Source: Rhodospirillales bacterium
Lineage (GTDB): Bacteria > Pseudomonadota > Alphaproteobacteria > ATCC43930 > CGMCC-115725
Direction of reading: 5' to 3'
Assembly (NCBI GenBank): GCA_947473305.1
Contig: CANJCB010000001.1
Coordinates: 186,001-250,000, forward strand
Length of the DNA: 64,000 bases
Shown: one piece after another, positions 46,834-48,389 of the stretch
Layout of the letters: each line of letters opens with the position of its first letter
Position numbering within the stretch: the first letter of the stretch is position 1
Position numbers and translations under genes: made by a program
The notes under the pieces: model-generated
Told to the model about the DNA's origin: nothing
What the model saw: only the letters and a program-made list of their open reading frames with translations
Databases searched by the model: none

Positions 46834-47349
46834 ATGACCCCAAAAAACCCAATGGACCTGTGGATGGAGATGGTGAATGGCTGGGTCCAGGCGACCCAAT
46901 CCTTCGTCGAATCTCAGCAGAAAGCCTTGCAGCAGGTAATGTCATCATTGCCTGCGATGGGCAAGATGCCGAGCGGCTGGCCCCTGTCCGGTCCCAAGGA
47001 TATCGAGCCGATATCGACGAAAGCTCCCGTGACCGCGGCGCCCGCGCCGAAACGGTCGACCAAGCCGGCTGTGCCGAAGAGAGCCGCCGCGAGCAAGCCC
47101 GCGGCCCCCGTCAAGGCCAAGCCCGCCCCGAAGGCAAAGCCTGCGGCCGCCAAGGTCGCAGCCAAGCCGAAAGCGGCGGCGCCCGCTGCCAAGAAGGCGG
47201 CCCCGAAGCCGGTCGTGAAAAAAGCCGCGGCAGCGCCGAAGCCCAAGCGCGCTCCCAAGGCGGAAAAGCCTGCCGCCGCCCCGGTGCCGACAACCGCCTT
47301 GGCGGAAGCGGCAAAGGTAGCGGTGGCCCCCGCTACCGCAACGGAATAA
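46834..47349 (+). CDS. Phasin-like protein with histone H1-like Lys-Ala-Pro tail (PhaF-like)
   Basis: 171 residues. The first 45 (MDLWMEMVNGWVQATQSFVESQQKALQQVMSSL) form an amphipathic helix like those that coat polyhydroxyalkanoate granules. Residues about 62-150 are a low-complexity KPA/AAKPKA tail with more than 25 lysines, strongly basic, like eukaryotic H1 or Pseudomonas PhaF, which bridges granules and nucleoid. TAAGGAAG eight bases upstream of ATG 46834 supports this start. A bacterial histone-like DNA compactor or simple phasin are the alternatives. It ends before a strong terminator. Confidence 0.65.
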   Translation: MTPKNPMDLWMEMVNGWVQATQSFVESQQKALQQVMSSLPAMGKMPSGWPLSGPKDIEPISTKAPVTAAPAPKRSTKPAVPKRAAASKPAAPVKAKPAPKAKPAAAKVAAKPKAAAPAAKKAAPKPVVKKAAAAPKPKRAPKAEKPAAAPVPTTALAEAAKVAVAPATATE

Positions 47350-47358
47350 GCGTCAGAA

Positions 47359-47397
47359 ACGAAGCGCGGCCCCGCCTTAACGGGCGGGGCGCTTTTT
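47359..47397 (+). terminator. Rho-independent terminator after the phasin-like gene
   Basis: A GC-rich hairpin with 5' arm AAGCGC-GG-CCCCGCC (two-base bulge), a loop near CTTAAC and 3' arm GGGCGGGGCGCTT, followed by a T run. It lies about 15 bases after the stop and also overlaps the end of the convergent sapC remnant. Confidence 0.8.
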
Positions 47398-48195
47398 CTC
47401 CGTTTCGCGAGGAGCCTCCGCAGGTTCCGCCTCTGCATCGCCCAGCGTGCCGAGCTCGATCAACTTCGGCCACCGACGCTCCGAGGTGAAGTGCGCATAG
47501 ATCGGCACGAGCCAGCCACGCTTGCGCCAATCGTTGATGCGGGCATCGTCGAGCGCTTCGAAACGGGCGGCGTCGATGACGCGCAAGCCGTCAAGCCGCG
47601 ATGTCGTGCCGTTCTTGAAGGTGATCATCACCTGCTTTTCGACCAGCAAGCCAGCGTCGTCGAGGGCGCGGCAAAACTCATGGGTGAGCCTGGAATATTC
47701 CCGATAGGAGCTGCAAAGCTGCATGGCTTCCTGCAAGGCCGGCGTCGGCTCGCCATTATCGAACAGGGGAACGCCCTGGCCGGCGATGCATTCCGCGGTG
47801 GGATCGACGCCGCAGACCCAGAGGCTGCTTTCCGGTTGCTCGATGAAGATGAAGGGGTATTGCCGGACTTAGGCTGGAATATAAATGCCGGACTGCCAGT
47901 TCAGATCTTCCTGGACGAAAAGGTTCTCTCCCTCGCGGATACCGACCATGGCCAGGGCGCCGGGATTGGGACCCCGGGAAAAAACGATGGGATAATGATC
48001 AGCAGCGACGTTGAATTCCGAGATGCTCAACGGAATGGCAGGAGCGAGCGAAGCATAGCCATAACGCTTGTTACGGCGATCGAAGCGAAGTCCCGCATGG
48101 AGATTTCGGTTGAGCGCCGTCAAGCCCTTGAAAAAGAGTGGCAGGGCCGTGTCGGATTGTGTTTCGCTCGGTGCTGCGGCTACGGTAGTCGGCAT
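47377..48195 (-). pseudogene. sapC: SapC family protein, interrupted by one in-frame TAA
   Basis: Two blocks in the same frame together give a full SapC domain. Before the stop: LPLFFKGLTALNRNLHAGL, YGYASLAPAIPLSISEF, YPIVFSRG and GENLFVQEDLNWQSGIYIPA. After it: VRQYPFIFIEQPES...ALQEAMQLCSSYREYSRLTHEFCRAL. The family usually reads Y(I/V)PAYVRRYPF here, so codon 109 (47869-47871, TAA) stands exactly where Tyr (TAT/TAC) is expected: one base change, with no frameshift or loss. The downstream 160 codons are intact, so either the mutation is recent or the base is miscalled. The start ATG 48195 has GAGG ten bases upstream (alternative 48219). SapC family function is poorly defined. Confidence 0.85.
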
Positions 48196-48389
48196 GCTCA
48201 AAACCCTCGTATGCTCCATGGTCGGTCGAGTCGACCGGGCGCAGTCGCCGAGTCGGCGATCCCCCCAATCCCCACATTAACGATTCAATGTGACAAAAGC
48301 CCCGAAAAGTGTAAAGCGCCGAACAGTAATTGACGCGATTCGGCTTCAGCGCCGCAATGCGGTTCGACGGAAAAACAGAAGGCACGCTA

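Follow-up and report, generated by a model that had tools for sequence, protein, structure and literature searches.

A single in-frame TAA within a SapC-family gene of a Rhodospirillales bacterium, probably the trace of a recent loss

Programmed stop-codon readthrough, selenocysteine, pyrrolysine and reassigned codes are known ways past stop codons. More ordinary outcomes are the subject of two papers of which parts are drawn on here. Premature stops are described as a usual form of bacterial gene disruption, with sequencing errors as a known confounder, in the part used of a review (PMC11078800). In the sections used of the other paper, in-frame stops in bacterial genes are widespread and short-lived on the scale of population polymorphism, and the genes that carry them, taken as a group, still have dN/dS below 1; readthrough is discussed there as a possible reason, and the vast majority of such stops are assumed not to reflect functional recoding (PMC7918605).

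The locus examined here lies in a window of 64,000 nucleotides (the whole stretch of DNA that was analysed) from a draft Rhodospirillales genome of 105 contigs. A sequence-only reading of the window had proposed that a single TAA splits a sapC gene, that the two halves share a frame, and that recent loss, a sequencing error and readthrough are equally open as explanations. The family concerned is PF07277, which we take to be distinct from the SapC of the sapABCDF transporter and from human saposin C.

The interrupted gene and its homologues

On the plus strand the interrupting codon is written TTA, which gives an in-frame TAA on the minus strand, and the natural terminator of the gene is a TAA as well (Table 1). 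Each half matches PF07277 independently (E 5.5e-18 before the stop and 7.2e-33 after it), and when they are joined with an X in place of the stop they give a single match of 198.3 bits over profile positions 1-220; both halves and the joined sequence score above the curated Pfam cut-off for the family, 28.9 bits. The two halves are therefore parts of one gene and not a chance pair of frames, which bears out the proposal of one TAA dividing one sapC in a common frame. Of the two possible starts, the second ATG, at 48195, is the likelier because an AGGG-type ribosome site can be read just upstream of it, and its use would leave 108 codons ahead of the stop. Beyond the stop, the first in-frame start is a TTG at 47736, 44 codons on.

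Convergent with sapC lies a gene for a short phasin-like protein (46834-47349, plus strand), whose long Lys-Pro-Ala-rich tail has, in our reading, a histone H1-like composition; on the other side a glutathione-transferase-like gene is divergent from sapC. Both names were read from the translations. Two terminator-like hairpins were found against a mean of 1.5 in shuffled sequence, a weak signal when taken alone.

Table 1. Features of the sapC locus, in window coordinates, and interrupted frames elsewhere in the sampled genome.
Feature	Position	Strand	Remarks
sapC (PF07277), interrupted by one in-frame stop	47377..48219	-	start at 48219 or, more likely, 48195
TAA stop, in frame, within SapC domain	47869..47871	-
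sapC upstream half, 116 codons	47872..48219	-	PF07277 positions 1-82, 65.8 bits
sapC downstream half, 162 codons + natural TAA (47377-47379)	47377..47868	-	PF07277 positions 85-220, 114.5 bits
Terminator-like hairpin of the convergent phasin-like gene	47369..47390	+	overlaps sapC 3' end
S49 peptidase	L153:19556, contig 14	-	TAA inside Peptidase_S49 domain; scanned stretch ends before gene start
PAS-type hybrid histidine kinase	L156:17316, contig 25	+	single TGA in first PAS domain; remaining 568-codon frame open
AMP-binding C-terminal domain, decayed fragment	L176:3890, contig 36	-	TAG inside, with a further stop upstream
Alpha/beta-hydrolase-like frame	L164:19851, contig 6	+	split by TAG, judged by eye; stretch ends 49 codons later

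For comparison, the window copy was aligned with 92 homologues, namely the best 80 of 579 matches confirmed in a scan of the genome collection and 12 found by HMM searches of the genomes of the taxonomic family. Tyr is the commonest residue at the column of the stop (86 of 92), a count that is biased because 80 of the homologues were gathered by two patterns, one of which spans this column. Those 80 have Tyr in 79 cases and His in one, and the 12 found by the HMM, from which the window copy is excluded, have Tyr in seven, Ala in two and Phe, Met and Ile in one each. The earlier description of the stop as replacing a conserved Tyr thus holds in that the aligned residue is usually Tyr, and goes too far if it is meant as an invariant position.

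A stop at this column occurs in none of the 92 homologues, the relatives compared being no closer than about 50% identity. Across the class, PF07277 has 97 matches in 81 of 385 genomes (own genome included, and with two matches that cover the domain only partly), and 96 of them keep open the domain that is stopped in the window copy; across the family, 13 matches in 9 of 39 genomes likewise contain a single one with a stop, the window copy. The idea of a stop common to the family or class was accordingly rejected for the matches examined. Matches in four relatives (L017, L025, L028 and L029) also showed stops. These matches extend beyond the domain match obtained for the gene in question (G010, G011, G040), within which no stop is listed, and we read the stops as the natural ends of the genes. 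In the alignment, three of the 92 segments include a stop close to the C-terminal end (query residues 260-271) and were trimmed there for the scoring of decay.

The genus consists of this one genome, and a scan of the genome collection with the downstream half alone found no close relatives; among the best 80 of the 579 confirmed matches, the highest identity is listed at 45%. Within flanks of about 1.5-3 kb (some shorter) beside the homologues, murI, the phasin-like gene, the GST gene, a methyltransferase-like gene and panB found no matches apart from one GST-like neighbour of 25% identity (L050). Among the neighbours tried, then, there is no conserved gene neighbourhood by which orthologues in the same place could be compared.

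Decay was scored as the mean substitution score, column by column, of the window copy against the other homologues in the 93 rows of the alignment. The window copy scores 2.11 before the stop and 1.87 after it, and its after-minus-before difference is mid-range, 58 of the 93 rows having a lower one; 37 of 93 rows score below it after the stop and 23 of 93 before. Among columns conserved in at least 85% of the sequences, it keeps 14 of 15 before the stop and 14 of 17 after, where the other homologues have medians of 14 and 16 and minima of 12 and 7. The statement that all SapC motifs are kept is therefore mostly right and slightly too strong, and that of some 160 well-conserved codons following the stop is confirmed by a downstream half of 162 codons, matching its family at 114.5 bits and undecayed. 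Scored against 92 homologues, no decay of the downstream half relative to the upstream half is measurable. A young stop, a base-call error and a translated gene would all leave the second half in this state, so the result does not choose among them.

Paralogue, predicted structure and other interrupted genes

The same genome carries an intact SapC paralogue on contig 44 (G000:C44:9767-10414), which matches the family at 219.7 bits with no stop and is 50% identical to the window copy over 244 residues. In a tree of the 93 rows the two pair with each other (the contig 44 protein as L001), with weak support (95/54) and on long branches. This placement makes redundancy plausible and suggests that the duplication, if there was one, is old, the two proteins being at best old paralogues. 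The contig 44 copy may make loss of the window copy tolerable.

In our reading, the structure predicted for SapC (mean pLDDT 87.8, pTM 0.80) is a single compact domain whose middle holds the stop, within a short helix (116-119); neither half, then, looks like a natural unit. Foldseek comparison of the model with the PDB gave no match at E 0.001 (best E 0.43, probability 0.23), a second structural comparison against 952 chains gave none with Z of at least 2, and a sequence profile search against the PDB gave none at E 1. PF07277 is apparently a family with no solved relative, and the structural searches give no clue to its function. A literature search on the function of PF07277 SapC found nothing, the term yielding saposin C and unrelated acronyms.

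Other stops flanked on both sides by coding-like sequence in the same frame were sought in a sample of the genome. A first scan covered 264 kb, made up of the window and ten 20-kb stretches, and listed 26 such coding-to-coding stops; all 26 were put to Pfam and three fell within one domain. Relisting of the same 264 kb with slightly different settings gave 27 stops, and five outside the first list were left out of the Pfam comparison. A further 300 kb gave 30 stops, of which 18 were put to Pfam and one fell within a domain. In 300 kb of a control relative (G010), 55 stops were listed and 20 put to Pfam, none of them within a domain. The candidates from the second 300 kb and from the control were chosen by hand, mostly for higher coding scores beside the stop, and the contrast of four in 564 kb with none in 300 kb, being small and partly tested, proves nothing about the genome being unusual.

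The four domain-splitting stops, that of sapC included, represent TAA, TGA and TAG (Table 1). The alpha/beta-hydrolase-like frame listed with them has no Pfam or PDB sequence match. Genome-wide, none of 137 ABC-transporter ATPase matches contains a stop (150 of 202 candidates were scored), and one of 97 permease matches does; that one lies close to the end of a contig, and its frame contains other stops. The four confirmed genes (the SapC copy, the PAS kinase, the S49 peptidase and the AMP-binding fragment) look accessory in our judgement, and a scatter of such genes broken by all three stops suggests mutational loss of the ordinary kind, or errors in the draft for some of them, rather than one decoding device.

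Signs of decoding at the stop were looked for directly. No tRNA with a UUA anticodon is present among the 38 tRNAs found by covariance search, a list that is incomplete in that tRNA-Tyr is missing from it, and a laxer search added one sub-threshold, untyped match of 24.6 bits. In the draft, neither the covariance search nor an anticodon-arm pattern found a tRNA-Tyr gene, so that either the draft or the search is incomplete; an assembly gap is the probable cause. The 100 nt around the sapC stop fold in an ordinary way (z = 0.54, with 143 of 200 shuffles folding as well), which leaves no sign of a stimulating RNA structure beside the stop. The 564 kb sampled hold 309 ORFs with 250 codons or more, and 49 of these end in TAA. 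Reassignment of TAA was considered and rejected, as TAA ends sapC itself and these long ORFs, and as all three stop types interrupt genes.

Competing readings of the stop

The grades of confidence given to the following readings are judgements and not computed values. We consider it probable that this sapC became a nonsense pseudogene not long ago. One substitution would have created the stop codon in a SapC-family gene, with too little time since then for the rest of the gene to decay. Translation would end at the TAA and yield a fragment of 108-116 residues with less than half of the folded domain; with no start codon in the vicinity of the stop, the downstream half would not be expected to be made. 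The loss may be bearable owing to the intact second SapC encoded on another contig. The analysis itself shows the stop, the continuity of the gene across it, a downstream half free of decay, the intact paralogue and, in the relatives examined, the lack of recurrence; that the base is real, the product non-functional, the gene dispensable and the paralogue able to cover for it is what we infer. Recent loss is the best supported of the three explanations first put forward as equals, because the downstream half is undecayed, the paralogue is intact and a few genes of the genome are broken alike. Absence of decay is, however, also what a functional gene would show. The opposite possibility, that the real gene is intact and the stop arose in base calling or assembly, we hold to be unlikely but worth keeping in view: a single stop in a gene with no other lesion or decay is also how an error would look, the sample holds further single stops in otherwise open frames, the control relative had no domain-splitting stop among the 20 candidates put to Pfam, and a draft in which tRNA-Tyr was not found may have gaps, unless the searches themselves missed that gene. 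Weighing against error, the four confirmed interrupted genes are judged accessory, the ABC ATPases contain no stop and the permeases only the one near a contig end, and the excess over the control is small, with candidates tested in part.

Passage of ribosomes through the TAA at some rate, programmed or regulatory, would yield full-length SapC, and the intact, in-frame downstream half is what this reading would require; it may also draw on the argument, made in the part used of PMC7918605, that many bacterial genes with in-frame stops keep dN/dS below 1. Nothing else found here favours it, and we regard it as very improbable. Recurrence, RNA structure and the type of stop speak against readthrough as one of the first explanations: the domain is free of stops in every other match examined, the RNA fold is ordinary, TAA serves as the terminator of sapC itself and of 49 of the 309 long ORFs sampled, and TAA is a codon recognised by both release factors, as stated in the part of PMC4989110 drawn on. 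The tRNA list, incomplete as it is, contains no UUA anticodon. A bolder form of the idea, in which the TAA is passed often enough to supply a low dose of SapC and the gene is one of several preserved in spite of an interrupting stop, the lineage being unusually lax in its termination at each of the three stops, strikes us as more doubtful still. The most far-fetched of the readings is a sapC divided into two separately translated, cooperating proteins. Both halves do keep their similarity to SapC, but a second protein begun at the first possible start, 44 codons past the stop, would be without the conserved YPF segment and without two strands. In the model the stop lies within a compact region and at no evident boundary, and no homologue examined is split likewise.

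Relation to known systems

For annotation, the young nonsense pseudogene that we favour means that sapC is here to be marked as a probable pseudogene, or as a place for a read check, and little beyond. Were it true that preserved stop-containing genes of this genome are translated through, the case would mean that termination is relaxed in a bacterium that uses the standard code, and the same few interrupted genes would form a ready test set.

Set beside its own family, the window copy is alike in giving a full-length match (1-220) once the stop is masked by X, and differs in being stopped inside the domain, as the other 96 class-level matches are not. With readthrough, selenocysteine, pyrrolysine and reassigned codes it shares an open frame that continues past the stop; it differs from them in that the codon is TAA and not TGA or TAG, in that the stop does not recur, and in that no suppressor tRNA or special RNA structure was found. 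The closest likeness is to the nonsense pseudogenes treated in the parts drawn on of PMC7918605 and of the review PMC11078800, with which sapC has in common one in-frame stop and no further lesion, a conserved gene that is otherwise intact, and a paralogue. From these it shows no difference in kind. The sapC of this genome is thus an example of the already known class of lone in-frame stops, and not of a new way of decoding.
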